DNA from: Rhodopseudomonas palustris
GTDB lineage: Bacteria > Pseudomonadota > Alphaproteobacteria > Rhizobiales > Xanthobacteraceae
Length of the DNA: 64,000 nucleotides
Assembly (NCBI RefSeq): GCF_034479375.1
Contig: NZ_CP140155.1
Span: forward strand, 558,001 to 622,000
Direction: 5' to 3'
In this document: positions 41,822-58,106 of the stretch, piece after piece
Numbering within the stretch: position 1 is the first letter of the stretch
Layout of the letters: every line of letters begins with the position of its first letter
Position numbers and translations under genes: made by a program
Notes under the pieces: generated by a model
Database searches by the model: none
What the model was told of the DNA's origin: nothing
The model's input: the letters and a program-made list of their open reading frames with translations, nothing else

Positions 41822-42553
41822 TCACGCGAACAGCTCCTGGCCATGCGCCTCGACATAGGCGGCGAGCCGCAGCGTGTGCTCGCGCGCCAGCTTCTCGGCG
41901 AGTTCGGTGTCGCGCTCTTCCATCGCCTCGATCATCGCGAGGTGCTCGGGCAACGACGCGGCGATGCGTTCCTTGCGGCCGATGGTGAGCTGGCGATAGC
42001 CGCGCACGTGGATCAGGATGTCGTCCGTCATGTCGACCAGCACCTGCGACTCGCTGAGCGAGATCAGCGCCTGGTGGAACACGATGTTGGCGCGGGAATA
42101 TTCCTGGATGTGATCCTGCGGCAGGCGCTCTGGGCCGAACGCCTTAAACACGTCGCGCAGCGCGGTGATGTCGCGCTTGCGCGCCATCGTGGTGATCAGC
42201 CGCGCCGCCATGCTCTCCAGCGCCGCCCAGGCGCGGATCATGTCGACGATTTCCGCCTTGGTCCGGCGCACCACCATGATGCCGCGGCGCGGCACGGCCT
42301 TCACCAGCCCGTCCTGCTCGAGCATCGCGATCGCCTCGCGAATCGGCGTGCGGCTGACGCCGAGCTTGTCCGACAGCGCGCGCTCGTCGAGCATCACCGG
42401 CTCGGGCGTGGTGTAGATGTCCATCTTCAGGATGGCCTGCTTCAGCGCCTGGTACGCCTTGGCCTTGTAGCTGACCTCGGGCGCGAGCGGCGCCATCGCG
42501 AGATCGGGCTCGGCGATCAAGTCCATCGGTCTGGTCCTGGCGCGAGCAGTCAT
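41822..42553 (-). CDS. GntR-family (FCD/FadR-type) transcriptional regulator
   Basis: 243 residues from ATG 42553 (MTARARTRPMD), preferred because the longer frame up to 42619 runs through a palindromic operator. The N-terminal winged helix has ERALSDKLGVSRTPIREAIAMLEQDGLVKAVPRRG. The C-terminal FCD domain (about 105-235) is helical with the ligand/metal histidine region NIVFHQALISLSESQVL and EHLAMIEAMEERD. Regulators of this class usually repress catabolic genes until an organic acid binds. It precedes frc and the transporter genes on the same strand and probably controls them and itself. Confidence 0.88.
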   Translation of the reverse strand: MTARARTRPMDLIAEPDLAMAPLAPEVSYKAKAYQALKQAILKMDIYTTPEPVMLDERALSDKLGVSRTPIREAIAMLEQDGLVKAVPRRGIMVVRRTKAEIVDMIRAWAALESMAARLITTMARKRDITALRDVFKAFGPERLPQDHIQEYSRANIVFHQALISLSESQVLVDMTDDILIHVRGYRQLTIGRKERIAASLPEHLAMIEAMEERDTELAEKLAREHTLRLAAYVEAHGQELFA

Positions 42554-42592
42554 CGATCTTCCATACCGTAACGGGAACGTCTGTTCGCTGAA

Positions 42593-42611
42593 CTGGCATG
42601 CCAAATGCCAG
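42593..42611. promoter_or_regulatory. Operator palindrome CTGGCAT-GCCAA-ATGCCAG
   Basis: Exact 7-base arms with a 5-base centre, 39 bases upstream of the GntR start. Size and symmetry fit the binding site of a GntR/FCD dimer, suggesting autoregulation. A second copy upstream of frc was not found. Confidence 0.55.
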
Positions 42612-42778
42612 GTCGTCAAGGTGGACGTCCGATACGCGAGTCGTGTTGCTCTGCGGTCATTGGTTGGGATGCCAGCACAGAGGCTGTTTCGCGAGAAAAG
42701 CGATCAAAATAGTGCTTGCGCGAAAATACAACTTATACGAGTATTTCGGCATGGGGTTGCCCCATGCGGAGATCGGGC

Positions 42779-43630
42779 ATGACGAACGGGATCGGGCGTG
42801 TGTTCATGTTCAATCCGCTGGTGAGCGGCACCTACGGCCCGTCCCAGTCCGTGGTCGTCAATTCCGACGGCAGCGCGCCTTACGTCATCAAGAACACCTC
42901 GCCGCGGATCGACTATGTGCCGTTCTCGACCTCCGGGGCGCGCGCCTCGGGCGCGCAGCCCGTCGGCAACGCGTTCGTCGATCGCAACGCGCTGCTGATC
43001 ACCAACGATGTGTCCTGGACCTACCAGTTCGACATTGGTGACTATCCGGGCGATCTGATCGCCTATCTGTTTCGCAGCCAGATCGTGCTGCTCGCGAACA
43101 GCGGCATCTTCCTCGCGTCCTATTCGGCAAAGCCGAAAGGAGATCATCGGCGCTCCGTGCCGAGCCGCGCGAAGGCGAGCCGGGAGTCGGAGACCGGCTC
43201 GGTCTACGTCTTCAACCTGTTCAGCGAAGGGCTGGACTTCATGTCGAACGGCGGCAGGGCCGGCGACATCCCGGCCTGGAGCGACGGCAGAAGCGGCGCG
43301 GCGATCTACACGCCGAACACCCTCGCGGTCGCGCGCGTGCTCAACAAGAGCGATGCGAAGGGCAAGATCTTCGACGGCGCCAACGCCATCACGGTCACCA
43401 CCGAGACCATCGGCACGTTCACGCTGAATGTCGACGGCAGGAAATTCCCGCTGGTGCAGGATCTGCTGCTCTATCTGATGCGCGACCGCTGGTACCTGTT
43501 CGACGAATTCGGCGCGGACTGCACCACCGGTCCGATCGAATTCGACGCCCCTCACTTTCATCCCGGCCGGGACGAAAGCGCTTCGCGACGTCAACCCACA
43601 GGAGATCGTCACCATGGCGACGAAGGATAA
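42779..43630 (+). CDS. Unknown protein with the VYVFNxFSE/PLxQDLLLY repeat domain (two-domain member)
   Basis: 283 residues from ATG 42779, with GGAG seven bases upstream. No named family is recognised. The second half (about 135-265) is a copy of the domain in the two following genes: SVYVFNLFSEGLDF, ARVLNKSDAKGKIFDGAN, and FPLVQDLLLYLMRDRWYLFDEFG. The first half (RVFMFNPLVSGTYG; SWTYQFDIGDYPGDLIAYLFRSQ) looks like a diverged copy. The domain is rich in short beta strands, suggesting a beta-sandwich. There is no signal peptide. The start is preceded by AT-richer DNA that probably holds the promoter of this cluster, and the end overlaps the next gene by 17 bases. Confidence 0.65.
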   Translation: MTNGIGRVFMFNPLVSGTYGPSQSVVVNSDGSAPYVIKNTSPRIDYVPFSTSGARASGAQPVGNAFVDRNALLITNDVSWTYQFDIGDYPGDLIAYLFRSQIVLLANSGIFLASYSAKPKGDHRRSVPSRAKASRESETGSVYVFNLFSEGLDFMSNGGRAGDIPAWSDGRSGAAIYTPNTLAVARVLNKSDAKGKIFDGANAITVTTETIGTFTLNVDGRKFPLVQDLLLYLMRDRWYLFDEFGADCTTGPIEFDAPHFHPGRDESASRRQPTGDRHHGDEG

Positions 43631-44030
43631 CAACGGTTCGGTCTACGTCTTCAACGTCTTCAGCGAGACGCTGACGCTCAGCACCAACGGCGTCACGGTG
43701 AAAGACGGCGATATCCCCGGCTGGTTCGCCGACGCGACGCCGAAATATCGGCCGAATGCCGTGGCGGTGCCGCGCACGCTCAATGCCAGCGACGGGCCGG
43801 GCAAGTTCTTCAACGGCACCAACCGGCTGACGATCCAGTGGGCCGACGGCCTGTTCGGCGCCTCGGTGGCGATCGACGGCGCGGGGTTTCCGCTGATCCA
43901 GGATCTGCTGCTGTTCATCGATCGCAACAAATGGCAGCTCGTCAACGAATACGGCGTCGAGAAGGACACCGGGCAGGTGATCGGCGCGGCGGCTCTCGGC
44001 GAACTGGCCGGCGGTCTCGTCAAGGCGTGA
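43614..44030 (+). CDS. Unknown small protein, single VYVFNVFSE-domain paralogue
   Basis: 138 residues from ATG 43614, eight bases after AGGAG, inside the end of the previous gene. It is one copy of the domain: SVYVFNVFSETLTL, a glycine/aspartate turn, RTLNASDGPGKFFNGTN, then SVAIDGAGFPLIQDLLLFIDRNKWQLVNEYG. A short glycine/alanine-rich tail follows. No signal peptide, membrane helix or known motif is visible. Close similarity to both neighbours shows tandem duplication. Product function is unknown; a secreted or structural beta protein, or a small partner of the giant protein downstream, are possibilities. Confidence 0.65.
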   Translation: MATKDNNGSVYVFNVFSETLTLSTNGVTVKDGDIPGWFADATPKYRPNAVAVPRTLNASDGPGKFFNGTNRLTIQWADGLFGASVAIDGAGFPLIQDLLLFIDRNKWQLVNEYGVEKDTGQVIGAAALGELAGGLVKA

Positions 44031-44064
44031 GCAGGGGCGCCGTGTCCGATCTCATGGCCAGAGC

Positions 44065-44469
44065 ATGACATCGCCCGGCGCCCTGCAGACGCCCGCAGGG
44101 AGCGTGTTCGTGTTCAACGTGTTCAGCGAAGACATGGACCGCTTCAGCGCCAACGGCACGCAGGTCGGCGGCAATCCGGCGATCGCGGCATGGAGTGCGG
44201 GGCCCGCGCCGGCGAAGTACACGCCGGGTTGCCTTCAGGTGTCGCGAACGCTCAATCCGAGCGACGGGCCGGGGAAGTTCTTCAACGGCAGTAACGACAT
44301 CAAGGTGAACTGGTCCGGCGAGATCGGCGCCTGCACGGTGCCGATCGACGGCGCCAAACATCCGCTGCTCGAGGACCTCGCGCTCTACGTGTTTCGCGGC
44401 AACTACTACCTGATCGACTCGGTCGGCGTTCTCATCGAGAGCGGGGCGATGCAGTTGACGGCGCGATAG
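44065..44469 (+). CDS. Unknown small protein, third VYVFNVFSE-domain paralogue
   Basis: 134 residues from ATG 44065. It repeats the same plan: SVFVFNVFSEDMDRFS, SRTLNPSDGPGKFFNGSN, a strand with CTVPIDGAKHPLLEDLALYVFRGNYYLIDSVG, and a short tail. It contains one cysteine. The ribosome site is weak. It lies 34 bases after the second paralogue and 40 bases before the giant gene, so all four are probably one transcript. Function is unknown. Confidence 0.62.
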   Translation: MTSPGALQTPAGSVFVFNVFSEDMDRFSANGTQVGGNPAIAAWSAGPAPAKYTPGCLQVSRTLNPSDGPGKFFNGSNDIKVNWSGEIGACTVPIDGAKHPLLEDLALYVFRGNYYLIDSVGVLIESGAMQLTAR

Positions 44470-44509
44470 CGCCGGGATCGCGGCATCGTCGGCGCGGCAA
44501 AGGTGCATC

Positions 44510-47500
44510 ATGGCGGATCGAACGCGTGCCCGGACCTCGTCGTTGCAGTTCGAACTGGTCGTGCCCGGCGTCCCGCTGTATCGCGCCGTCGGCGCGACGC
44601 CGCAGACCGCGCCCAGCGTGTACTACGCGCTGGTCGGCGATCCCGGATCGTTCCCCGAGATGCTGCCGGCGGACGACGCCTGGGCGAACTGTTCGGGCGG
44701 CTTCGTCTTCGTCGAGGCGGGCGCGGCGGTCGCCGACCCGAAGGATGTCGTTGCGGCGCTGAACGAGCGGCTGCAGCCGCAGGCGCCGATGCGGCAATGG
44801 GTGGTGTGGGCGAGCGACCTCACGCCGCCGCGGATCGCCGCCGCGCAATTCATCACCATCGCCAAATCCGCCGGCGACGGCAGCGGGCGGGTCAAACCGG
44901 GCTGCGCGATTGCGTTCTGCGATCTGGCGCTGCAGATCAGCGCCGAAGTGATCGTCGCGCCTGCGTTCGGCGACGATCCGCCTGCGCTGCAGCTCGTCGC
45001 CAGCGGCAGCAGCGGCCTGGTGCTGCAAAGCCAGGGCGCGGGCCAGGCGTCGCTGCCGCTGCCGAGCGATCAGCCGGTGGCGATGCCGATGGCGGGGCCG
45101 TCGCTGGGCACGTTCAGCTTCGCCTTCGCGCCGGATCGCGGCAGCTTCTTCGCGCTGTTCGCGCCCGAGGACGACAGCGAAACGCCGCCGGCGTCGGCGG
45201 AGATCCGGTTCTTCGCGGGGCCGTTGGAAACCCCGATCGCGATGCGGTTTCCATTGCTGCTCGGCGCCTTTCCGGATCCGCGCGCGCCGGTCGCGGCGCA
45301 ATTGCCGCTGCGGGTGACGATCGATCCGCTGCAGCCGACAAATGCGACGCGCACCCGGTTTGTGTTCGATCTCGACAAATACGGCGACGGCAAGCCGGTG
45401 CTGCCGGTCAGCGAGGCGATGCGCAGCACGGCGGGCGCGACGTTGCGGCTGACGCCGCAGTCTGGCGCCGGTTTCAGCCTCGCGCGAAAACCCGGCGCCG
45501 CGCCGCAGACGGCCTACCTCACGCCGGCCGGGCGATATCTGGTTGCGACGTTGCCGAAGACCAAGGCAGGCGCGCCGATCGCCGATGATCCGTTGGCGCT
45601 GATGTGCGGCTTGTTCGGCAGCGAGTTCCTGCTGATCGCGCAGAGCGATCTGCTCGATTTCCAGGGCGAGCGGCCGGGCTTCGCCGCGCACTATCCGCCC
45701 GAGATGCATATCGCCCGCGCCTGGGATGCGCGCGGTCCGCTGTCCGACGTTTACACCACCAACTGGGTGCAGGTGATCAAGGGCGCGAACAGCGACAAGA
45801 CCTTCCCCGGCACCATCAAGCAGAGCTTCTGCGCGCAGGCGGTCGACACGGTGTATTTCCAGAGCGCGCCGACCGGGACCGAGCCGTTTCCGATCGCGGT
45901 GGGCGCGCGGATCGCCGATCTGTCGGATGCGGCCGCGGGGCAGGTGCTGCCGCTGGCGCCCTATGGCGATGTGTATTTCTCCGACCGGACGATCGACAAT
46001 CCGAACCCGGCCGTCAGCGCCGATGCGCTCACCAGTTTCGAGACCGCGGTGCTGTCGCCGGCACGGTTCGCGGCGATCGCGGCGGATCGCTGCCTCGGGC
46101 CGCTGTTCTTCGACATGGCGACGCTGGAGCCGCTGAGCGGCGGCTATGTCCAGACGCCGCAGGGCCTGCTGGTCGGCCTCAACAGCGGGGCGATGACGTC
46201 CGCGACGCCGGCCGGGAGCTGGCAGCAATTGCTGCTGGCGCGCAGCCCGCAGCGGCCGGAGCAATGGCTGCGCTTCCTCCACGGCACGACGCCGTCGGGC
46301 TGCAGCGGCGGCACCGGGCCGTTTGACGTCGTCAGCCCGTATCTGTCGACCGCGCTGATGAATCCGGCGGCGTTTCTGGTGATCGCCGATCCCGCATACC
46401 TCGGCGCCTTCGACAATCTGCTGCAGCTCGGCGAATTTCCGATCGAGATCGCGGTGTCGAACGCCGACGACGGGCCGTCGCTCGACGTCAATTGCGTGCT
46501 GGCGTTCAAGCTCGCGGCGGGGCGCTCCTTCGCCGAACTCGCCGCCGAGCCGTCGGGCTGGACCGACCCCGAGCTGTTCGCCGGCGCTGGCAGGGCCGAA
46601 ACGATCTCGCGGCAGATCGTCGACTATATTCATCAGGCGAAGCTCGCGAGCGAGGCGGCGCGCGCCGCGGGGGCTTACGATTATTTCGGCGACTTCGTCG
46701 CACGGATGAACGATCCGGACTGGACCGGCATCATCGCGCTCGACGCGCCGCTGCGATTGCCCGAGCTACCCGCCGACATCGCGATGCTGTTGTGCGGGAT
46801 GCGATCCGACAAGCCGCTGTGCTGTCATCATTTCGGCATCACCACCAACGCGCCGAAGCGGGCGGCGTCGGCCGACGACGCCCTGCAGCACAGCTCGCTG
46901 TTCGGGTTGATCTATTACGATTACGCGTTCCAGACCCCGACGGCGGATTTCGATTTTCAGACGCTGTCGCTCAAGGCGCTGTTCGCCAACAGCCTGCTGG
47001 CGCATTTCGAATCGCAGATCGCTTACTCGATCGCGACGCTGTTCGACGATCCTGTGACGCTGTCCGTCGCCGGCCAGAACGATTTCCCCGCCACCAACAC
47101 CATCGTCATCGACGGCGCGCTGCAGCAGCGCGACGGCGAGACCTCGGTGGTGTTCGTGACCAGCGAGCAGCGCGTCTTCACGTTCCCGGCCGACGCCGAT
47201 CGGTACCGTGCACTCGCGGCGCAGACCGTCACCAGCGCCGGGCTCGCGCCGCTGACGGAGGGGAGCGACGGCGTCGGCGGCGATGCCGGCCGAACGGTGT
47301 GGGCCGCGTTCACGCTCGACGGCGCGCTCGGCTTCAACACCGAGCCGGCGACTGCACCGCGACGCGACGGTCCTGCGCCGATCGATCTGTTCTCCTATGG
47401 ACTCCACGACGCGTATTCCGGCGGGCTCGGCTACACCGGATATGCGTTCACGATGAAGAGCGTGGTGCCGGACCAAGGCCTCACGCCGCCGCCGAACATC

Positions 47501-50500
47501 GCGACCGACCTCGGCGGCGTGCTGCTCGACGCCGAAGCCGGCGCGCCGCGCGATCACAGCCTGATGGCGACGCTGCCGCTGAAGCTGCTCGGCTTCCGGC
47601 CGCAGGCGGAATTCGCCGCGTTGAAGACGGTCACCGTCACCGGCGTCGGCCTCGACAGCGTCGAGCCGGTCTACGCGCTGGCGCTGCAGGTGATGATGGG
47701 CACGATGGGCGGCCTGACGTCACAGGCGCCGCTCGAAGGCGTGCTGCTGCTCGGCTGGGTTCCCGGCAAGACGCGGGCAGTCGCCGATCAGGTCGGGCTG
47801 CTGCTGGCGCCGCCGCCGTCGATGAAGGACGGCACGTTCCAGCTCCAGGGCGTGCTGCCGACGCAATACGGCGCGGTCGAATTGCTGCGTCCCAAGCTCG
47901 CAGGCGACGACGTCTATGTGCTGATGCTGCGCGACGTGCTGTTCGCGCTGGGCGCGTTTCCGCTCTACATCCCCTCGACCGGCGAGCGTTCGCTTACCTT
48001 CTTCGGCCTGCCGGCGGACGACGGTGAAGGCCGCAACGAGGGCGATGACGAGGACGGCGGCATCAACCTCGCCTGGTTTCTCGGCGAGCCGGATCTGGCC
48101 GGCGCCGCAGCGCCGTCCGAACCGCGGCCAGTGCGCGCGACCGAAAAGCATCTCAGCGTCACCCCGACCGTCTACGTCGTCGCCGGCCTCAAGGTCGAAT
48201 ACGACATCCAGTCCAACGACGTCATTCCGATCATCATCTCGATGCTGTCGGAAGTGCCGCTGTCGACCAAGGCGGCGCTCGACGACATCGCGGACGGTTC
48301 GGCGCAAATCCCGGTGTCCTACGATCCCTCGGCCGGCGTCACCGTCGCGGTCGATCTCGAATTCACCCCGGTGACGTTCCAGTTCGTGTTCTCCGATCCC
48401 TATGTCTACGGCGCGCGGCTGTCGATCGGCGCGGCGCCGCCCGAGCCGAAGGTGCGCACGTCTGGCCCGGTGGCCGTGGCTGGTCGGGTCGCGGCGAACA
48501 TCGCGGCGCCCCCGGAAAAGAAGAAAGGCATCCTCTCCAGCCTGCGCGGCTTCGTGCTGGAAATCGCCTATCGCAAGATAAGCGACAATCTCGGCGCCTG
48601 GAGCGGATCGTTCACCTGGACCCAGCCGATCGGCACCGACGATTACAACATCATGCTGCCGACGGTCGGACTGATCGTCTACACCAACAGCGATTTCCGG
48701 GTCGATATCGGCTGGCCGTTCGCGCCGGACGGGGCCGGGCTGGCGCAGCCGTTCTCGGTGTCGTTCTCTATCGAGGGCGTGCCGGTCGAGGCCGCCGGCG
48801 GCTTGTACTTCGCCAAGCTGCGTTCGGCCGACGCGCCCGAGGAACTGGGCGACGACTTCGCGGTGATCTGGCGGTTCGGGCTCGGCCTGTCGTTCGGGAT
48901 CGTCAAGGAAATCCACAAGGGCCCGATGTTCCTGAGCGCGGGCCTGATCGCCTTCGCCACCTTCGAGGGCTTTCTGTCCTCGACGCACGGCAAGATGACC
49001 GAGCAGGGCGTCGACTACAAATGGTTCGCCGGCCAGCTCGGCGTCGAGGCCTATTTCACCGGCGCGGTCGATCTGCGGATCATTTCGGCGGCGATCTCGA
49101 TCAGCGCCACGCTGGTGCTGCAGGTCGCCTACGAGACCGCGCATTCGACGGTGATCCGGCTGGCGTTCAAGGTGTCGATCTACGTCGAATTCCGCATCGT
49201 CTTCATCCGGATTTCGTTCAGCTTCGACGCCGACCTCGACGTGTTCCCGCCGATCCATATCGGCAGCGGTCCGCCGGCGCTGATGATCGGCCCGACGCCG
49301 CCGACCGCGCGCCGCATCGAGGCACGGCCGACGCGCGCGCCCGCGCCTCCGGTCCGCGTCCGCAAGGAGCTGCATCCCGCCATCGCTGCGCGCTTCGCAT
49401 TGGAAGCTCCGGGCGATGCGATCGCGATCACGCTGTACTTCACGCTGCAGCCCGCGGTGATCAACAGCACGAATGCGGCGATGCCGCAGGCGGTCGCGGG
49501 GCTGGCGATCAATCTGCAGCCGGAATCGACGGCGCCGGACGATTTCTCCAATCTCTCCACCGCGCTTGGCCATTTTCTGCAGGCGAACTACGCGAAGGGC
49601 GTCACGCTGACCGAGCAGCTCGCCGCGATCACGGCGAGGCTGGACGACGGCACGTTCGACGGCGCGGTCGGCACGTTCCTGTCCGGCTTGAAATTCACCA
49701 TCCTGCCGCAGGCGAGCCTGACCACGGCGGCAGACTTCGCGTTCTTCCCGATGCTGCCGCAACTGGCGCTGAGTTATAACGGCAGCCAGATCGTGTTCGA
49801 TGCGCCGCCGCTGCCGGCGGGCTACGCCGAGGCGCTGAAGCGCTATTTCGATCAGCTCGCGCAGGGGATGCCGCGCCAGCCGCTGGCGCGCGAGGCGATG
49901 ACGGACAGCGCGTTTCCGACATCGGCGGCGGGCCTGATCTGCACCGACATGATCGTGCTGCTCGCCAAGCAGCTCGTCGCCAATCTGCAGGACATCGCTG
50001 CGGCCGATCCCGATCTGAGCTTCGACCAGGCGCTGTCGACGCTCGGCCCGGCCGGCTTCGCGCAACTCGCCGGCTACATGTCGCGCTTCGCGCTGTACGG
50101 GCTGCGGCTGCCGGTGCCGGGCAGCGAGCCGTTCGGCAGCGAGCTGACGGCGATATATCAGCTCACCGGCCAGCAGGTCGCGCTGGCGCAGCAAGGCGGG
50201 AAGTGGATCACCAGCTTCACGCTCGGCTACGCGCCGGGCGAAAACGTCTCCGACTGGATCGTGTTCGGCGCCGACGGCAAGGCGGCGTCGGTCACCGACG
50301 ATCTCGGCGCCGGGCTGGTGCTGGACACGATGGTGCAGCCGTCCTGGCTCGGCGCCGGCGGCGACTTCGTGGCGCTGCCGCCGCTGAAGACCCAGCCGTG
50401 CCCATATTACATCGCGCGGTCGTATCTCTGGAGCCGCAATGACGGCCACATCGCCAATGTCAGGCCGATGGCCGACGCGCTGCTGACCCGGATGCGGCAG

Positions 50501-53500
50501 TTCTATGCGCTCGGCGGAAGCGGCGCGGTGGCGCGGCTGGCGCAGGTCCCGGGCGACGCGTCCCCGTCCCCGTTGAAGGCGACCGCTGCACTGATTGTCG
50601 GGATGAGCCTGCGCCGGATCATTCCGCCGGGACAGGACAAGCCGCTCGCGACCGTGTTCCGCCTGATCGGCGCCGACACCGGCACGCGCGATCTGCTCGA
50701 CCGGCTGATCACTGCCGATGCGTGGGCGGGAACGACGCTGTCGCTGCTGATCGCCAACGGGTCGAGCAGCTATGCGTCCTGCGCCAAGCCCGACGCGGTC
50801 GTGCTCACCAAGGCCAATCTCTCGACTCTGAACGAGCCGCCGGTGCTGATGGCCACCGGCCAGCCGGCGCTGCGCGCGGCGGCGCAGCAGCCGCCGGTGT
50901 CGGCACGCCTCGCGGATGCCGCCGCCTTCGCGCTGCTGGTGTGGGAAGTCTCGGTGGTCAATGCCGACGGCTTCTATCTGCACATCGACGGCGTCCCCGA
51001 CGCCGCCTTCAGCACCGGCGATGCCCAGATCGCGTTGCTGATCTCCGCCGGTGCGCCGGATGTCGCGACGCCGCTGACGCCGTGGGCGAACTGCTTCGTG
51101 CTGGGCAGCGTGCCCGAGGATAGCAAGGGACCGGTCGCTGCGACCGTCTCGGATTCGGGCGGGGCGTGGCAGACGACGACGCCGGGCAGCCTCGGCGGCA
51201 GCGTCGGCTTCTCGATCGACTGGCCGGCGCCGCCGGCAACGCCCGGCCTCGGCGCTAGTCCATCGCCGGCCGAGAAGGCGGCCTATGCCGAGGCGCTGTA
51301 CAGCCTGCTGCAATATCGCATCGACCAGATCGTCGCGCCGACGCCGCGCGTCGCCGCGGCGATCGGCGCAAGCGTGACGCTGCCGACCAATTGGAGCATG
51401 CCGGTCGGCCCCAACCAGGCCGAGCGCGGCGCCGACTGGATCTTCAGCAACAGCGTCGCCATCGCGGCGCTGCTCGGCCAGAGCAATCGCTACGTCGGGA
51501 TCGGCTGTTCGGTCGGGTTCTCGATCCAGCTCCTCGACATCTACGGCAATGCACTGCCGAAGCCGTCATCCGTTTTGGTGCCGTTCGTCTACAACGACGT
51601 GCTGGTGGCGGTGGAAGCGTGGCCGGCGATCCGCTCCTACTACGCGTTCAGTGCATCAGGCAGCGCCGTCGAACTGACGCTGCTGCTGGTGTTCGATCCG
51701 GCCAATCTCGGCGGCGGCGCGCTGTCGCCCGACGATCCGGTGACGATCGCCAGCGCGATCGGCAGCTACAGGCTGGTGCTGGACCAGCTCACCGATCCTC
51801 TGCAGCTCGCGAGCCCAGGCGCCGCGATCCAGATCGAGACCGTGCTGTCGGCGTTGCCGCTGACGACATTGAGCGACGGCCGCAGCCTGCGCGCGGTGCT
51901 GACGGCCTTCGTCCAGTCGATCATCGCTTTTCTCGAAGCGCTGCTCGCCGGCAAAACGCCGGCGCCGCCGCCGCCGCTGCAGGCGCTGTTCTTGCTCGAC
52001 AAGAGCTACGTCGCCGAGCTGCCGTCGGACATCTTCGAACTCACCGTCGAACTGGTGTTCGCGCGCGCGCCCGAGACGGTCGATCCCGCGATCGCCGCAG
52101 CACTGCCGGCGGTGCAGATCAGCCGGTCATGGATTGCGGCGGCGGTGTCGCTGGCGCCGACCGGCAGCGGCGACGGGCCGGACATGCAGTTGTCGGCATT
52201 CGCGCAGGCGTTCGAAGCGGCGTGGGCCGGCTTCGACGGCGGCAGCGGCGAGCTGAAGCTGGCGCAGGGCGTCCAGGCCAACAATGCACTGGCGCGCAAG
52301 CGGCGTGAAGCGCGGCTCGGCAGGACGCGCGCTGCGCTCACCGCCGCGGCGGCCGGGCAGGCCGCGCAGGCGCCGCTGTGGTGCGTGCGGTTCGCGCGCT
52401 CCGCGGGCATCGCCGTTTCATTTCCGAATGCCGGCGCATCGCCGCCGGCGGCGCAACTGCCGCTGTCCTGCGCGCCGCTGCCGCTCTCCACCAGCCTGAT
52501 CACCGCGACCGTCAAGGTTCGCGTCTACGACGCCAACGGCGGCGTCAAGGCCGATCAGGACGTGGTGTTTTCGAGCATCGACATGGACGTGTGGGCCGGG
52601 CAGTTCCTGTCCGCGGCGGATGGTCTGTTCGCGCCGCTGATGGCGAGCGCCTCGGCGACGCTCGATCCGGCCTGCTACGCCGATCTTGCGGCGAGCAAGG
52701 AAACCCTCGCCGACCAGATCGCGACTGGCCTCGCCGCAGTGCTGCGCATCCCCGGCCAGAGCGTCGACCTCGCGGAGGCGACCGAGCGGTTCCGGCAGGC
52801 GTTGCTGCAGAGCCTGTCGACGGACTACGCGCTCGCTTCGGTGGTGCAATTGCCCGCGGCGGTGACGCTCGCGGGCAAGGACGAGCCGGACGCGCCGCCG
52901 CAATTGTTCGGCAAGGTGCGCGATCCCAGCCTGTCGGCGGCGGCCTCGCAGGCTTTCACGCTGACGTCCGCGGATCTCGCGCTCGCCACGGGCGACGAGC
53001 CGCTGATCTATCTCGCCTCGGCACGCAATCCGGCCGCCCATGCCTGGCTCGATCTGCGCCCGGAATTCGACGTCGCGTTCCTCGAGCACGATTTCGATCC
53101 GGACCACAAGCGCTACGGCTACGAGCCGTCGGCGTGGCTGAGCTTCATCGTGCCGGCGTTCGCGCCGGCCGGCGGCCGGCCGGTGCTGAATATGCCGATG
53201 GGCCGCAACGCCATTCCGGTGCCGCTGCGGCTGTTCCCGGCGATGCCGGCGATCGCCACTCAGGCCAGCGTGCTGCCGGCGACGATCACCTCGATCGCCG
53301 ATGCGCTGTTGTGGAGCTACAGCTTCACCGTGTCGGCGCCGAGCGCGGCGCAGGACGAATTGACGCTGCTGGTGCTGTTGAACGATCCACCCGCGCCGGG
53401 CCTCGGCCGCCGGCTGCAACGCACCACGCATGTGGAGGCCGCCGGCGACGATCCGCCGCGGCCGCCGCCGAACAACCTGTTCGAGGCGCTGGCGCGGTTC

Positions 53501-54538
53501 TCGTTCGAATATCCGCAGCTCGCGCCGTTCCTCGCGCAGGTGCCGGCCGCCGCGTTCGACGGCGCCCCGCCGGACGCGCCACGCAAGGCGCTGCAGCGTT
53601 TCGACGCGCTGGTCGGCGGCGCTGCATCGACCTGGGCAGCGTGGGTGCAAGACCCCAAGCAGGCGAGGGCGGAGCAACTGGCCGCGCGATTGCTGCGGTC
53701 GGACGGAGCCGAAGGGGTGCCGCGCGCGACCTGGCGCTACCTGATCGATTTCAGCAGCCAGCCCGACCTGAAGGTGACCCGCGCGATCGATCAGACCACG
53801 ACGACATTGCCGCCGTGGCCGCAGATCGACGGCTATGTCACGCCGCCCGCGAGCAACAAGCCGACCGACATCTACGCATTGCGGCAGCGCAGCGAGGCGC
53901 CCGGCGAATTGCGCGTGACGCTGCCCGGCCTGTTCATGGTGGCGGCGCAGACCGCGCATGTCATGGCCAATGTCGTGCGCAATGCCAATCTGGTGCCCGA
54001 TGGCATGCCGGCCGGCACCAGCGTCGATCCGGGTTTCGTCTACACCACGCCATGGACCGAACTGAAAGACCCGGTCGGCCCCGCGCAGACGGTGACCTCG
54101 CCGATCGTCGTCGGCAGCGGTGCGACAAATCTGTCCGCCGCGATCGACCAGATGCTGCAGCCGTTCGTCGCCGGGCCGGCGGTCCCCGGCGTGGATGCGA
54201 CGACGATGCGGCTGCTGGTCAACGCCAACTACGCCTACACGCTGGCGCAGGGCGGCAAGGATCAGGCGCTGCTCAGCCGCTCGGCGATCTTCCTCGGCGA
54301 TCGCGACATTGATCTGACCGCGGCGCGCGCGGACCCGGCGAGCTTCGACCAGTTCAAGCGCGACCTGGTCGGCGCATTGATGCAGTGGCACACCGCCTTC
54401 GCTCCGAGCGATCGCGGGGCGCGGCTGGAATTCTTGCTCGATCTGTTTTCGCAGACCGGCGACAAACAGGTCGCATTGCTCCGCCTGACCGATGTGCGCA
54501 TTGCGGTGCCGGCTGCCGCGCCGGCGTGGTGGGAATAA
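44510..54538 (+). CDS. Giant protein of unknown function (3342 residues)
   Basis: An uninterrupted frame of 3342 codons from ATG 44510, with AAAGG six bases upstream; about 350 kDa. I recognise no family, signal peptide or transporter-like membrane topology. Most of it is made of short beta strands with Ala/Pro/Gly-rich turns. Around residues 1220-1590 there is a run of long alternating hydrophobic strands (VAVDLEFTPVTFQFVFSD; RIVFIRISFSFDADLDVF) resembling a lipid-transfer-like groove or a barrel/solenoid. A proline/arginine-rich linker (about 1600-1620) divides the protein. Terminal Trp residues (PAWWE) end it. Codon use is GC-rich and matches the genome, so it is established rather than newly acquired. 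It lies downstream of three paralogous small genes and 168 bases before pqqA. It may be a structural, surface or toxin-type protein, but none of this is shown. Confidence 0.7.
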   Translation: MADRTRARTSSLQFELVVPGVPLYRAVGATPQTAPSVYYALVGDPGSFPEMLPADDAWANCSGGFVFVEAGAAVADPKDVVAALNERLQPQAPMRQWVVWASDLTPPRIAAAQFITIAKSAGDGSGRVKPGCAIAFCDLALQISAEVIVAPAFGDDPPALQLVASGSSGLVLQSQGAGQASLPLPSDQPVAMPMAGPSLGTFSFAFAPDRGSFFALFAPEDDSETPPASAEIRFFAGPLETPIAMRFPLLLGAFPDPRAPVAAQLPLRVTIDPLQPTNATRTRFVFDLDKYGDGKPVLPVSEAMRSTAGATLRLTPQSGAGFSLARKPGAAPQTAYLTPAGRYLVATLPKTKAGAPIADDPLALMCGLFGSEFLLIAQSDLLDFQGERPGFAAHYPPEMHIARAWDARGPLSDVYTTNWVQVIKGANSDKTFPGTIKQSFCAQAVDTVYFQSAPTGTEPFPIAVGARIADLSDAAAGQVLPLAPYGDVYFSDRTIDNPNPAVSADALTSFETAVLSPARFAAIAADRCLGPLFFDMATLEPLSGGYVQTPQGLLVGLNSGAMTSATPAGSWQQLLLARSPQRPEQWLRFLHGTTPSGCSGGTGPFDVVSPYLSTALMNPAAFLVIADPAYLGAFDNLLQLGEFPIEIAVSNADDGPSLDVNCVLAFKLAAGRSFAELAAEPSGWTDPELFAGAGRAETISRQIVDYIHQAKLASEAARAAGAYDYFGDFVARMNDPDWTGIIALDAPLRLPELPADIAMLLCGMRSDKPLCCHHFGITTNAPKRAASADDALQHSSLFGLIYYDYAFQTPTADFDFQTLSLKALFANSLLAHFESQIAYSIATLFDDPVTLSVAGQNDFPATNTIVIDGALQQRDGETSVVFVTSEQRVFTFPADADRYRALAAQTVTSAGLAPLTEGSDGVGGDAGRTVWAAFTLDGALGFNTEPATAPRRDGPAPIDLFSYGLHDAYSGGLGYTGYAFTMKSVVPDQGLTPPPNIATDLGGVLLDAEAGAPRDHSLMATLPLKLLGFRPQAEFAALKTVTVTGVGLDSVEPVYALALQVMMGTMGGLTSQAPLEGVLLLGWVPGKTRAVADQVGLLLAPPPSMKDGTFQLQGVLPTQYGAVELLRPKLAGDDVYVLMLRDVLFALGAFPLYIPSTGERSLTFFGLPADDGEGRNEGDDEDGGINLAWFLGEPDLAGAAAPSEPRPVRATEKHLSVTPTVYVVAGLKVEYDIQSNDVIPIIISMLSEVPLSTKAALDDIADGSAQIPVSYDPSAGVTVAVDLEFTPVTFQFVFSDPYVYGARLSIGAAPPEPKVRTSGPVAVAGRVAANIAAPPEKKKGILSSLRGFVLEIAYRKISDNLGAWSGSFTWTQPIGTDDYNIMLPTVGLIVYTNSDFRVDIGWPFAPDGAGLAQPFSVSFSIEGVPVEAAGGLYFAKLRSADAPEELGDDFAVIWRFGLGLSFGIVKEIHKGPMFLSAGLIAFATFEGFLSSTHGKMTEQGVDYKWFAGQLGVEAYFTGAVDLRIISAAISISATLVLQVAYETAHSTVIRLAFKVSIYVEFRIVFIRISFSFDADLDVFPPIHIGSGPPALMIGPTPPTARRIEARPTRAPAPPVRVRKELHPAIAARFALEAPGDAIAITLYFTLQPAVINSTNAAMPQAVAGLAINLQPESTAPDDFSNLSTALGHFLQANYAKGVTLTEQLAAITARLDDGTFDGAVGTFLSGLKFTILPQASLTTAADFAFFPMLPQLALSYNGSQIVFDAPPLPAGYAEALKRYFDQLAQGMPRQPLAREAMTDSAFPTSAAGLICTDMIVLLAKQLVANLQDIAAADPDLSFDQALSTLGPAGFAQLAGYMSRFALYGLRLPVPGSEPFGSELTAIYQLTGQQVALAQQGGKWITSFTLGYAPGENVSDWIVFGADGKAASVTDDLGAGLVLDTMVQPSWLGAGGDFVALPPLKTQPCPYYIARSYLWSRNDGHIANVRPMADALLTRMRQFYALGGSGAVARLAQVPGDASPSPLKATAALIVGMSLRRIIPPGQDKPLATVFRLIGADTGTRDLLDRLITADAWAGTTLSLLIANGSSSYASCAKPDAVVLTKANLSTLNEPPVLMATGQPALRAAAQQPPVSARLADAAAFALLVWEVSVVNADGFYLHIDGVPDAAFSTGDAQIALLISAGAPDVATPLTPWANCFVLGSVPEDSKGPVAATVSDSGGAWQTTTPGSLGGSVGFSIDWPAPPATPGLGASPSPAEKAAYAEALYSLLQYRIDQIVAPTPRVAAAIGASVTLPTNWSMPVGPNQAERGADWIFSNSVAIAALLGQSNRYVGIGCSVGFSIQLLDIYGNALPKPSSVLVPFVYNDVLVAVEAWPAIRSYYAFSASGSAVELTLLLVFDPANLGGGALSPDDPVTIASAIGSYRLVLDQLTDPLQLASPGAAIQIETVLSALPLTTLSDGRSLRAVLTAFVQSIIAFLEALLAGKTPAPPPPLQALFLLDKSYVAELPSDIFELTVELVFARAPETVDPAIAAALPAVQISRSWIAAAVSLAPTGSGDGPDMQLSAFAQAFEAAWAGFDGGSGELKLAQGVQANNALARKRREARLGRTRAALTAAAAGQAAQAPLWCVRFARSAGIAVSFPNAGASPPAAQLPLSCAPLPLSTSLITATVKVRVYDANGGVKADQDVVFSSIDMDVWAGQFLSAADGLFAPLMASASATLDPACYADLAASKETLADQIATGLAAVLRIPGQSVDLAEATERFRQALLQSLSTDYALASVVQLPAAVTLAGKDEPDAPPQLFGKVRDPSLSAAASQAFTLTSADLALATGDEPLIYLASARNPAAHAWLDLRPEFDVAFLEHDFDPDHKRYGYEPSAWLSFIVPAFAPAGGRPVLNMPMGRNAIPVPLRLFPAMPAIATQASVLPATITSIADALLWSYSFTVSAPSAAQDELTLLVLLNDPPAPGLGRRLQRTTHVEAAGDDPPRPPPNNLFEALARFSFEYPQLAPFLAQVPAAAFDGAPPDAPRKALQRFDALVGGAASTWAAWVQDPKQARAEQLAARLLRSDGAEGVPRATWRYLIDFSSQPDLKVTRAIDQTTTTLPPWPQIDGYVTPPASNKPTDIYALRQRSEAPGELRVTLPGLFMVAAQTAHVMANVVRNANLVPDGMPAGTSVDPGFVYTTPWTELKDPVGPAQTVTSPIVVGSGATNLSAAIDQMLQPFVAGPAVPGVDATTMRLLVNANYAYTLAQGGKDQALLSRSAIFLGDRDIDLTAARADPASFDQFKRDLVGALMQWHTAFAPSDRGARLEFLLDLFSQTGDKQVALLRLTDVRIAVPAAAPAWWE

Positions 54539-54706
54539 TGACGAATAGCCGCACCGACACGTCATTGTTGCGCCGCACGGATTTCATGTTGCGGTGCTCA
54601 CCTTGTGTTGATGGCCGGAGGCGAAACCATCCGGTGCTTGCATGCGTTCCAGTGCAGCCTTAATCTTCAAGGCGTGACGACAGTCTGCAATCCTCGGGAG
54701 GACCTC

Positions 54707-54924: not shown

Positions 54925-55848
54925 ATGCGCGTCGTCGTTCTCGGGGCGGCGGCTGGAGGCGGGGTCCCGCAGTGGAACTGCGGCTGCGAGGTCTGCCGCG
55001 CGGCATTCGCCGATCCGACGCTTGCGCGCACGCAGGCGTCGGTGGCGGTCAGCGCGGATGGCCGGCACTGGTTCCTGATCAATGCCTCGCCGGATCTGCG
55101 CCAGCAGATCGTCGCGACGCCGCAGCTTCATCCGAAGGCCGGCGCGTTGCGCCACAGCCCGATCGCGGGCGTGATCCTCACCAATGGCGAAGTCGATGCG
55201 GTGGCCGGCCTGCTGTCGATGCGCGAGGGATCGCCATTCGCGATCTACGCCCACGCCAAGGTGCTGGCGATCCTGAAGGTGAACAGCATCTTCAACGTGC
55301 TCGACGAGAAACTGGTGCCGCGCCGATCGATCGAGATCGGTCGGCCGTTCGAGCCGATGCTGCCGGATGCGACGCCATCGGGCCTCGACGTGGTGGCGTT
55401 CGCGGTGCCCAGTAAGGGCGCATGGTATCTCGAAGGGCGACCGCATCCGGGCGGCGAGGCGGCGGATGGCGATACGCTCGGCCTGACCATCACCGACAAG
55501 GCTACGGGCCAGTCCGTGCACGTCCTCACCGCCTGCGCGCGGGTCACCGACGATCTCAAGGCGCGGCTGGCCGGCGCGCCGCTGCTGCTGTTCGACGGCA
55601 CGGTGTGGCGCGACGACGAACTGATTGCTGCCGGGCTCGGCCGCAAGACCGGGCAGGCGATGGGGCACATCGCGATGTCGGGCGAGGACGGCGCGATCGC
55701 CGCACTCGACGGTCTCGGCATTGCGCAAAAGCTGTTCGTGCATATCAACAACTCCAATCCCGCGCTGCTGTGCGACTCCGCGGAGCGCCGCGCCGCGGAG
55801 ACGGCCGGTTGGCAGATCCCGGCCGACGGCACGGAGGTGACGCTGTGA
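54925..55848 (+). CDS. pqqB: PQQ biosynthesis protein PqqB
   Basis: 307 residues from ATG 54925, with GGAGG upstream. It is a metallo-beta-lactamase-fold protein with the PqqB N-terminus VVVLGAAAGGGVPQWNCGCEVCRAA (a cysteine knuckle-like pair), INASPDLRQQI and the ILTNGEVDAVAGLLSMREG segment. In the current view of the pathway PqqB hydroxylates the tyrosine-derived part of the cross-linked, processed intermediate. Translation is coupled to pqqC by overlap at CTGTGA. Confidence 0.93.
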   Translation: MRVVVLGAAAGGGVPQWNCGCEVCRAAFADPTLARTQASVAVSADGRHWFLINASPDLRQQIVATPQLHPKAGALRHSPIAGVILTNGEVDAVAGLLSMREGSPFAIYAHAKVLAILKVNSIFNVLDEKLVPRRSIEIGRPFEPMLPDATPSGLDVVAFAVPSKGAWYLEGRPHPGGEAADGDTLGLTITDKATGQSVHVLTACARVTDDLKARLAGAPLLLFDGTVWRDDELIAAGLGRKTGQAMGHIAMSGEDGAIAALDGLGIAQKLFVHINNSNPALLCDSAERRAAETAGWQIPADGTEVTL

Positions 55849-56609
55849 ATGCGATGACCGCGTTTTCGATCAACGGCGCCGCGCCGCTGGCGAGCGCCGA
55901 CGAGCTGGAAGCCGCGCTGCGCCAGATCGGCGCGGCGCGCTATCACAATCTGCATCCGTTCCATCGGCTGCTGCACGGCGGCAAGTTGAACCGAGGGCAG
56001 GTGCAGGCCTGGGCGCTGAATCGTTACTACTACCAGAGCACGATCCCGATCAAGGACGCGGTGGTGATCTCGCGCTTCCGCGACCGCGCCACGCGAATCG
56101 AGTGGCGGCACCGGATCGAGGATCACGACGGCGATGCCGGCAGCGAGGGCGGCATCGCGCGCTGGCTGAAGCTGACCGAGGGGCTCGGGCTCGACAGCGC
56201 CTATGTGGAGTCCACCCAGGGCATTCTGCCGGCGACCCGCTTTGCCGTGGACGCCTATGTGCATTTCGTCCGCGACCGCACGCCGCTGGAGGCGATCGCG
56301 TCGTCGCTGACCGAGCTGTTCGCGCCGAACCTGCACGAGGAGCGTATCGCCGGTATGCTGGCGCATTACGACTTCGTCAATCCGGAGATCATGAGCTATT
56401 TCAAGCGCAGACTGACGCAGGCGCCGCGCGACGCCGAGTTCGCGCTCGACTACGTCAAGCGCCATGCGACGACGCCGGCGGAACGCGAAGCGGTATGCAA
56501 TGCGCTGATCTTCAAGACCAACGTGTTGTGGGCGCAGCTCGACGCGCTGCATCACGCCTATGTCGACGGCCACATCCCGCCGGGCGCCTTCGTGCCGCAG
56601 GGCAAGTGA
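55845..56609 (+). CDS. pqqC: Pyrroloquinoline-quinone synthase PqqC
   Basis: 254 residues from GTG 55845, overlapping the pqqB stop; ATG 55854 (MTAFSING) is a close alternative. The helical haem-oxygenase-like fold is shown by YHNLHPFHRLLHGGKLNRGQ, QAWALNRYYYQSTIPIKDA, HRIEDHDGD and HHAYVDGHIPPGAF. It performs the final ring closure and eight-electron oxidation that yields PQQ, using O2 without metal. Length is normal (about 250). An 10-base gap leads to pqqD. Confidence 0.95.
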   Translation: MNAMTAFSINGAAPLASADELEAALRQIGAARYHNLHPFHRLLHGGKLNRGQVQAWALNRYYYQSTIPIKDAVVISRFRDRATRIEWRHRIEDHDGDAGSEGGIARWLKLTEGLGLDSAYVESTQGILPATRFAVDAYVHFVRDRTPLEAIASSLTELFAPNLHEERIAGMLAHYDFVNPEIMSYFKRRLTQAPRDAEFALDYVKRHATTPAEREAVCNALIFKTNVLWAQLDALHHAYVDGHIPPGAFVPQGK

Positions 56610-56619
56610 GGGCAGGGCG

Positions 56620-56928
56620 ATGGCGTCGCGCCACATCAGCGTCAACGAACAGAGCCGGCCGGTGCTGCCGCGCCACGCGAAATTGCGTTTCGATGAAACA
56701 AGGCAGCGCTGGGTGATCCTCGCGCCCGAGCGCGTGCTGGCGCCCGACGACATCGCGGTCGAGATTCTGCAGCTCTGCGACGGCACGCGTGACGTTGTTG
56801 CGATCGTCGATGCGCTGGCGCTGAAGTACACCGCCGATCGCGCCGAGATCGGCGCCGACGTGGTGACGATGCTGCAGGACCTCGCCGACAAGGGGTTCCT
56901 CACCGAAGCGCGCGAGAGCGCGCCATGA
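56620..56928 (+). CDS. pqqD: PQQ peptide chaperone PqqD
   Basis: 102 residues from ATG 56620, ten bases after the pqqC stop. The PqqD/RiPP-recognition fold is indicated by RPVLPRHAKLRFDETRQRWVILAPERVL and the helical QLCDGTRDVVAIVDAL and LQDLADKGFL segments. It binds the PqqA leader and presents it to PqqE. The end overlaps the pqqE start by four bases (ATGA), fitting the known physical partnership. Confidence 0.93.
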   Translation: MASRHISVNEQSRPVLPRHAKLRFDETRQRWVILAPERVLAPDDIAVEILQLCDGTRDVVAIVDALALKYTADRAEIGADVVTMLQDLADKGFLTEARESAP

Positions 56929-58106
56929 GCGCCGCGGTGAACGAGACCCATCACCAAGTCGATGGCGTCGCGGCGCTGGAGTCGCGGGGCTCCGTCCCCG
57001 AGAGCTTCGGGATTCCGCTCGCGGTGCTGCTGGAAGTGACGCATCGCTGCCCGCTGCAATGTCCGTATTGCTCCAATCCCGTCGAGCTCGAGCGCGGCGG
57101 CGCGGAGCTTGCGACCGACGAATGGAAGCGCGTGCTGAGCGAACTCGCCGCGATCGGCGTGCTGCAGGTGCATTTCTCCGGCGGCGAGCCGACCGCGCGC
57201 AAGGACCTCGTCGAACTGGTGCGGCACGCGACCGACGTCGGGCTCTACACCAACCTGATCACCTCGGCGGTGCTGCTGACGCGCGAGCGCCTCGCTGCGC
57301 TGGCGGATGCCGGGCTGTGCCACGTCCAGATCAGCTTTCAGGGCAACGAGCCGGCCGTTGCGGACCGCGTCGGCGGCTTCGCCGGCGGCCATGCCAGGAA
57401 GGTCGAGGTCGCCCGCTGGACCCGCGAGCTCGATCTGCCGCTCACCGTCAACGCGGTGATGCACCGGCAGAACCTGCATCAATTGCCCGACATCATCGAG
57501 ATGGCGGTGGCGCTCGACGCCGACCGGCTCGAAGTCGCCAATGTGCAATATTACGGCTGGGCGCTGAAGAACCGCGCCGCCCTGATGCCGACGCTGCAGC
57601 AGATCGAGGATTGCACGGCGATCGTGGAGGCCGCGCAGTCGCGGCTGAAGGGGCAGCTCGCAATCGACTACGTCGTGCCGGATTACTACGCGCTGCGACC
57701 GAAGACATGCATGGGCGGCTGGGGCCGGCAGTTCTTCAACATCTCGCCGAGCGGCAAGGTGCTGCCGTGCCACGCCGCCGAGACCATCACCGGCCTCGCC
57801 TTCGATTCGGTGCGCGGAGGTGCGTCGATCGCCGAGATCTGGCGCAATTCGGAGGCGCTGAACCGCTATCGCGGCACCTCGTGGATGCAGCAGCCCTGTG
57901 CGAGCTGCGCCTTCAAGGAGATCGATTTCGGCGGCTGCCGCTGCCAGGCCTTCGCGCTGGCCGGCGACGCGGCCGCGACCGATCCGGCCTGCGCGCTGTC
58001 GCCGCTGCACGAGCGGATCTTCAAGACCGCGGAAGCAGAGGCGGAAGCCGGCGGCGAAAAGTTCGTGTATCGCAATTTCGCCGGCGGCACGGCGGAGGGC
58101 GGGTAG
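56925..58106 (+). CDS. pqqE: Radical SAM PqqA peptide cyclase PqqE
   Basis: 393 residues from ATG 56925. The radical-SAM cluster motif has C42, C46 and C49 in THRCPLQCPYCSNP, and FSGGEPTARKDLVEL forms the SAM site. The C-terminal SPASM region binds auxiliary clusters with cysteines in LRPKTCMGGWG, GKVLPCHAAETI and QPCASCAFKEIDFGGCRCQAF. It forms the carbon-carbon bond between E16 and Y20 of PqqA, assisted by PqqD. It is the last gene of pqqABCDE; no pqqF-like protease is present here. Confidence 0.95.
   Translation: MSAAVNETHHQVDGVAALESRGSVPESFGIPLAVLLEVTHRCPLQCPYCSNPVELERGGAELATDEWKRVLSELAAIGVLQVHFSGGEPTARKDLVELVRHATDVGLYTNLITSAVLLTRERLAALADAGLCHVQISFQGNEPAVADRVGGFAGGHARKVEVARWTRELDLPLTVNAVMHRQNLHQLPDIIEMAVALDADRLEVANVQYYGWALKNRAALMPTLQQIEDCTAIVEAAQSRLKGQLAIDYVVPDYYALRPKTCMGGWGRQFFNISPSGKVLPCHAAETITGLAFDSVRGGASIAEIWRNSEALNRYRGTSWMQQPCASCAFKEIDFGGCRCQAFALAGDAAATDPACALSPLHERIFKTAEAEAEAGGEKFVYRNFAGGTAEGG

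Follow-up and report, generated by a model that had tools for sequence, protein, structure and literature searches.

A two-giant protein cassette with an exchangeable enzyme slot and its compact, fused form in Rhodopseudomonas palustris: a possible payload-delivery complex

What might a bacterial protein of 3342 residues do that belongs to no recognised family and is encoded directly behind three small genes? The question is raised by a gene cluster of Rhodopseudomonas palustris within the 64,000-nt stretch of NZ_CP140155.1 from position 558,001 to 622,000 (the whole of it hereafter called the window), for which an earlier note had described three tightly packed small genes followed by a 3342-residue giant, a layout that we can confirm as one tight plus-strand cluster. 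By profile comparison, the window giant is a fusion of one protein, G1, with most of another, G2, which are usually separate proteins. We tentatively regard the window locus as the compact version, lacking a payload, of a cassette that is widespread in the order G1, slot, G2, with one of several unrelated enzyme-like proteins in the slot. The genes of the cluster and the parts of the giant are as follows:

42779..43630, plus strand: small gene 1, 283 aa; its frame is open back to 42716 and its start is uncertain; 118.6 and 4.2 bits to the small-domain profile
43614..44030, plus strand: small gene 2, 138 aa; 65 relatives; predicted beta-sandwich; no signal peptide seen
44065..44469, plus strand: small gene 3, 134 aa; same small domain, 142 bits
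44510..54538, plus strand: giant gene, 3342 aa; G1-G2 fusion; no signal peptide seen
44510..48019, plus strand: G1 part of the giant (residues 1-1170), a separate protein of ca. 1200 aa in most relatives
48527..54535, plus strand: G2 part of the giant (residues 1340-3342), from profile comparison and the G2 core profile
48275..49297, plus strand: most conserved segment (residues 1256-1596), a predicted membrane-barrel-like beta domain (model, structure comparison, strand hydropathy and alignment)

Small genes 1 and 2 overlap by 17 bp and the later gaps measure 34 and 40 bp. Third-position GC lies at 0.82-0.88 in the small genes and at 0.88 over the giant, whose eleven full 300-codon blocks all fall within 0.87-0.90, and a codon-usage gene caller that had first been trained on the giant calls the same frames, with later starts for small gene 3 (44104) and the giant (44543). 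The giant is a real gene because nine relatives match it over the full length at 42-69% identity, three of which are named as coming from Rhodopseudomonas palustris, Allosphingosinicella sp. and Sphingomonas pituitosa. Of the domain that all three small genes had been said to share, three clear copies are indeed found (212, 142 and 119 bits); in small gene 1 it occupies the C-terminal half, and the N-terminal half holds at most a very weak fourth copy (4.2 bits). The structure of the small gene 2 product was modelled at a pLDDT of 88.8 and a pTM of 0.82.

The claims that the giant is of no recognised family and unlike giant adhesins, non-ribosomal peptide or polyketide synthases (NRPS/PKS), RTX proteins and contractile-injection proteins have both held up in the libraries searched. 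Neither the giant nor the small proteins gave a match above cut-off in Pfam, NCBIfam, PHROGs or PADLOC, and the profiles of the small domain and of the giant core found nothing among PDB sequences. The sole match of the Pfam-A scan to E=1 was DUF2574 at E=0.19, the NCBIfam and PHROGs scans returned nothing to E=1, and PADLOC to E=0.01 had no match for the window giant, a window small protein or one representative each of the EEP and GFGHQ slot proteins described below. Adhesin, RTX, NRPS/PKS and contractile-injection domains had no Pfam or PHROGs match to E=1; in the Pfam scan to E=1, the window giant likewise lacked LysM, Tc (TcA/TcB/TcC), SpvB and Rhs domains, and it showed no recognisable sensor domain, NTPase or otherwise. 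LysM is nevertheless precomputed for 5 of 18 relatives of the window giant. Comparisons with hhalign gave no sign that the giant contains the small domain or internal repeats, or that G1 and G2 arose as mutual duplicates. A phage origin was rejected for lack of any match among 50,697 phage records, and matches were found in 7 of 72,556 plasmid records, all below 60% identity.

The composite nature of the giant emerges from comparison with 80 wider loci in 11 phyla, the best 80 of 203 confirmed ones, which were found through one core motif in a scan of species genomes, so that the G2 core is present in 80/80 by construction; the gene calls are mechanical. On the profile of the window-type giant, separate proteins of ca. 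1200 residues cover the part up to ca. 1170 and larger ones the part from ca. 1340 to the end. These separate G2 proteins mostly have 2500-4700 residues and carry an additional N-terminal extension that is absent from the window giant. With a dedicated profile, G1 was detected at 78 of the 80 loci, each time upstream of G2 and on the same strand, and at the other two (L016 and L062) the sequence starts at a contig end inside the slot gene or G2. Single-frame G1-G2 giants like that of the window occur at four loci (L004, L010, L018 and L034), where profiles detected no slot enzyme in the fetched 20-30 kb, and on a quick tree fused giants appear in three places (the window with L004, L010 with L018, and L034).

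The slot lies between G1 and G2 or at the front of G2. By profile, it holds an EEP (DNase I-like) protein at 38 of the 80 loci, a GFGHQ protein at 20 and a metallo-beta-lactamase (MBL) protein at six, to which Pfam adds an MBL protein at L057 (MBL total seven) and, at L080, an HNH-like one that at 19.9 bits stays below the cut-off of 21.4 and is probably HNH; these two were entered into the profile census by hand. The remaining 14 comprise the four G1-G2 fusions, the truncated locus L062 and nine loci without a recognised enzyme (L014, L027, L028, L033, L036, L040, L064, L068 and L083), some with short genes in the slot and some without a gap. The slot protein is either a separate gene ahead of G2 or fused to the N-terminus of G2, and at 11 of the 20 loci with GFGHQ this domain makes up the front of the G2 frame itself.

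Motif and profile place the EEP slot proteins in the DNase I-like EEP family: among 19 aligned members, E60, H230, G265, F267, N268, D344, S446 and H448 are invariant and N8, D266 and N345 nearly so, Pfam PF03372 is found in 12 of the 19 at E<=0.1, and their profile matches DNase gamma (E=2e-6) and DNase I (E=6e-6), though the same search ranks three designed SAKe proteins higher over a 40-residue stretch, matches that look spurious. On the same kinds of evidence, the MBL slot proteins have a metallo-beta-lactamase fold, with an HxHxDH motif (H98, H100, D102, H103) invariant in eight members, a profile match to ComEC chains (E=1e-5) and, in the two L057 proteins, Lactamase_B matches that exceed the cut-off. 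An initial scan against Pfam with one EEP and one MBL protein had given no match or one under the threshold. One MBL slot protein matches the PADLOC models LmuA (E=1.6e-12), RTasMBL (3e-8) and Avs1a (7e-5). The GFGHQ family has no Pfam match below E=0.07 and no PDB match below E=0.9, and its relatives are all unnamed or hypothetical proteins, one of them listed under Flavobacterium johnsoniae; that it might be a GT-B glycosyltransferase is a guess from its motif. Another locus (L120, G328:C2, 13301-16080) carries two tandem slot genes, one of them with Lactamase_B above cut-off; its G2 region lies in two frames, and the core is present in all three genomes examined of its genus.

The quick tree (SH-aLRT only; 33 of 78 inner branches below 80), on which L062 was not counted for its slot, requires at least 17 changes of slot state, compared to 37.2 with shuffled labels (0 of 200 shuffles as low), and the slot therefore follows descent in part yet has been repeatedly exchanged. 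Starred branches alone force at least five changes for EEP, two for GFGHQ and three for MBL, and one starred group of ten unites six GFGHQ with four MBL loci. Whole-genome profile searches, which scored few candidates per genome (five for EEP), found the EEP subfamily once among 296 genomes of the taxonomic family of the window genome, at the G193 locus. Of the slot families, EEP and GFGHQ were searched in the window genome itself, which yielded no EEP relative at E<=1e-10 and, in a search lacking a positive control, none of GFGHQ at E<=0.01.

Upstream of G1, the small proteins belong by profile comparison to several unrelated, exchangeable families. At 74 loci with enough upstream sequence, a same-strand open reading frame (ORF) lies within 400 bp of G1 in 60 cases and none does in 14, and 51 of the 60 ORFs fall into six recurring clusters. 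Cluster c2 resembles c8 (probability 94) and weakly c5 (58), while the window small family, c4, c6 and c9 resemble no other cluster (at most 1.2). The suggestion that the small genes accompany the giant is supported within the family, where the giant core occurs in five of the 296 genomes and the small domain in four, all of them among those five. Of the 80 wider loci, only two carry the window small-domain family (E<=1e-5), and most others have a different small family upstream. Among 337 genomes of the class, the giant core occurs in four and the small domain in one, the window genome. A constant gene order, which according to the earlier note would imply joint action, fails for the small-domain family (2/80) and holds for G1 followed by G2 (78/80), the pair that is fused in the window. 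The window small family is tied to the split form by the order at the G193 locus (L118), where a weak small-domain gene (34 bits) is followed by a gene of 435 residues and then by a split G1, an EEP gene and the beginning of G2.

The segment of G2 that is conserved best (residues ca. 1256-1596) is predicted to resemble outer-membrane beta-barrels, with a modelled strand arrangement like that of CymA, OmpG, Occ porins and TonB receptors at 4-11% identity and with strands that alternate between hydrophobic and polar residues. None of 150 giant frames has a signal-peptide-like start by a heuristic devised for the present analysis (the N-terminus of the window giant was judged by eye), and the same G2 core is also found in the Gram-positive Actinomycetota and Bacillota.

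Three lines of argument lead us to favour, still tentatively, a payload-delivery complex with a membrane-inserting barrel, of which the window form would be a compact version without payload. The fixed order and the two kinds of fusion argue for a single complex in which G1, G2 and the slot protein work together; the slot proteins look like payloads because unrelated enzymes occupy one slot; and the predicted barrel, being carried by a giant without a leader, seems intended for a different membrane. We infer that G1 and G2 would assemble into one large complex holding the slot protein and that this complex would exit the cell through lysis or a non-Sec route. The small partners, together with LysM inserts in some relatives, might then bind the target surface, and the amphipathic G2 barrel might insert into the target membrane and let the payload in. 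In Rhodopseudomonas and its relatives, with one chain and no slot gene, the protein would do no more than bind and insert into a membrane, or would work with a partner encoded elsewhere. Delivery, binding and toxicity are proposed from sequence and predicted structure, and several of our own observations weigh against the proposal. No secretion route was identified, the fused forms have no slot gene, and nine of the 80 loci are unfused and yet show no recognised slot enzyme. The barrel model reaches a pTM of only 0.55, Foldseek found no significant match for it (best E 0.11), and strands outside the barrel alternate as well, if shorter and less extreme. Moreover, 20 of 29 loci with at least two small genes (e.g., L020, L069 and L014) pair a leaderless product with a signal-peptide-like one, and signal-peptide-like starts are seen on 8/8 MBL proteins of cluster c13 and only 2/26 EEP proteins, such that the MBL starts fit poorly with loading in the cytosol.

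One alternative is a large assembly of G1 and G2 at the cell surface or outside the cell (a matrix, adhesin or scaffold), which would attach to peptidoglycan or chitin by its LysM inserts and whose slot enzymes would scavenge DNA or other phosphoesters. The signal-peptide-like starts on several slot enzymes and small proteins, LysM in 5 of 18 giant relatives and a collagen-like/Kelch family near six of the 80 loci all point in this direction, but we think it unlikely: the giants are without signal peptides (0/150), that of the window shows no LysM match to E=1, a scaffold would not be expected to carry unrelated enzymes in one slot, and a membrane-type barrel would have no obvious role in it. 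A translocon in the producer's own outer membrane would give that barrel a place, given its similarity to outer-membrane proteins, and would agree with exported small partners and MBL proteins in several Gram-negatives; it seems highly improbable, however, for leaderless giants whose core recurs in Actinomycetota and Bacillota, mostly without an outer membrane. Intracellular defence, with the giants as sensors of phage or plasmid and the exchangeable slot protein as their effector, strikes us as improbable too. The sporadic, accessory distribution of the giants (5/296 and 4/337 genomes, with empty sites) and effector exchange are typical of defence systems, and one MBL slot protein resembles the defence MBL models named above. 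Yet the giant and the EEP and GFGHQ proteins searched have no PADLOC match, a sensor domain such as an NTPase could not be recognised, the starts of MBL slot proteins look like signal peptides, the predicted barrel is left unexplained and the window neighbours are metabolic genes.

Those neighbours invite a last alternative, a function tied to the synthesis of pyrroloquinoline quinone (PQQ) or to oxalate metabolism, as pqqB, pqqC and pqqE follow immediately behind the cluster and a formyl-CoA transferase gene stands two genes away on its left side. The flanking features, both outside the system, are:

41822..42526, minus strand: GntR-type regulator gene (FCD and GntR domains), left edge of the insertion
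54925..58106, plus strand: pqqB, pqqC, a short frame and pqqE (NCBIfam PqqB, PqqC and PqqE above cut-off), right edge of the insertion

A pqqB search had matches in 14 of 16 genomes of the genus and returned loci for 12, two of them from carriers of the giant (the window genome and G108) and ten without the giant core. At these ten sister loci, the regulator flank, which ends at the counterpart of window positions ca. 42512-42621, and the pqq flank, which starts at that of ca. 54555-54694, are 227-419 bp apart, compared to ca. 12 kb in the window. The ca. 12-kb cluster is therefore accessory, and its neighbours, being the same at ten empty sites, tell little about its function. Since relatives elsewhere have other neighbours as well, we give a PQQ or oxalate link next to no credence and reject it on the strength of the empty sites.

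A few observations stand apart from the payload-delivery proposal. The sole tRNA gene of the window is a tRNA-Sec gene called by ARAGORN (15265-15360, minus strand) within a protein frame called on the opposite strand. On a Lysinibacillus fusiformis plasmid (L096, 29529-32849), genes for a nucleotidyltransferase, an E2/UBC-family protein and a Mov34/MPN/PAD-1 protein lie ca. 10 kb downstream of a G1-G2 pair and are reminiscent of a CBASS-like defence set. Plasmid pBRH02 of the fungal endosymbiont Mycetohabitans rhizoxinica (L092, 389-15968), typed as conjugative, carries a row of a small gene, two genes of ca. 1100 residues and a LysM giant. A collagen-like (G-P-Q repeat) and Kelch-like family is encoded near giants at L037, L031, L043, L061, L067 and L076 (6/80, by single-linkage clustering).

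Might the cassette be a new class of delivery machine, spread over at least 11 phyla, built on a G1-G2 carrier that has a membrane-inserting barrel of its own and takes interchangeable enzymes and small recognition proteins, and which lineages such as Rhodopseudomonas have as a single payload-free chain of ca. 3300 residues? We put this forward with considerable reserve. The cassette is rated new because its carriers match no curated family and because, to our knowledge, its architecture is matched by no known system. No description of it was found in the open-access literature, subscription papers and preprints lying outside the search. Passages of PMC12419801 treat other large proteins with LysM. 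If the proposal is true, a widespread two-giant system with swappable enzymes would have escaped annotation because its carriers are in no family library, and it would stand as a separate kind among delivery machines should delivery be shown. Machines with interchangeable payloads are wanted as tools, and the fixed order, natural fusions and slot exchange make the function testable with few constructs in laboratory strains. Even without delivery, the frame of G1, slot and G2 would help to name giants now called hypothetical or LysM domain-containing.

Compared with known systems, the slot EEP proteins share the motif set and profile of DNase I-like EEP enzymes but are larger (297-580 aa as called) and carry inserts. 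The G2 segment at ca. 1256-1596 is like the outer-membrane barrels CymA, OmpG, Occ porins and TonB receptors in its predicted strand arrangement and alternating strands, and unlike them it lies in a chain of 2000-4700 residues without signal peptide that is also found in Gram-positives. Polymorphic toxins and contact-dependent inhibition systems similarly exchange unrelated enzyme modules on a conserved large carrier, though at the C-terminus, whereas exchange in the cassette takes place upstream of G2 or at its N-terminus; neighbour clusters found at four or more of the 80 loci (crude gene calls, BLAST E<=1e-4, single linkage) include no immunity-like family, and fast-evolving genes would be missed in this way. 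Tc (ABC) toxin complexes combine very large leaderless proteins with an enzyme payload and insertion into the target membrane, and it is in this inferred mechanism that the cassette would resemble them. Tc complexes also enclose their payload in a shell and pass it through a pore. The window giant has no Tc, SpvB or Rhs match in Pfam to E=1, the putative payload of the cassette either has a gene to itself or is fused to the N-terminus of G2, and the predicted membrane part is a many-stranded barrel within one chain.

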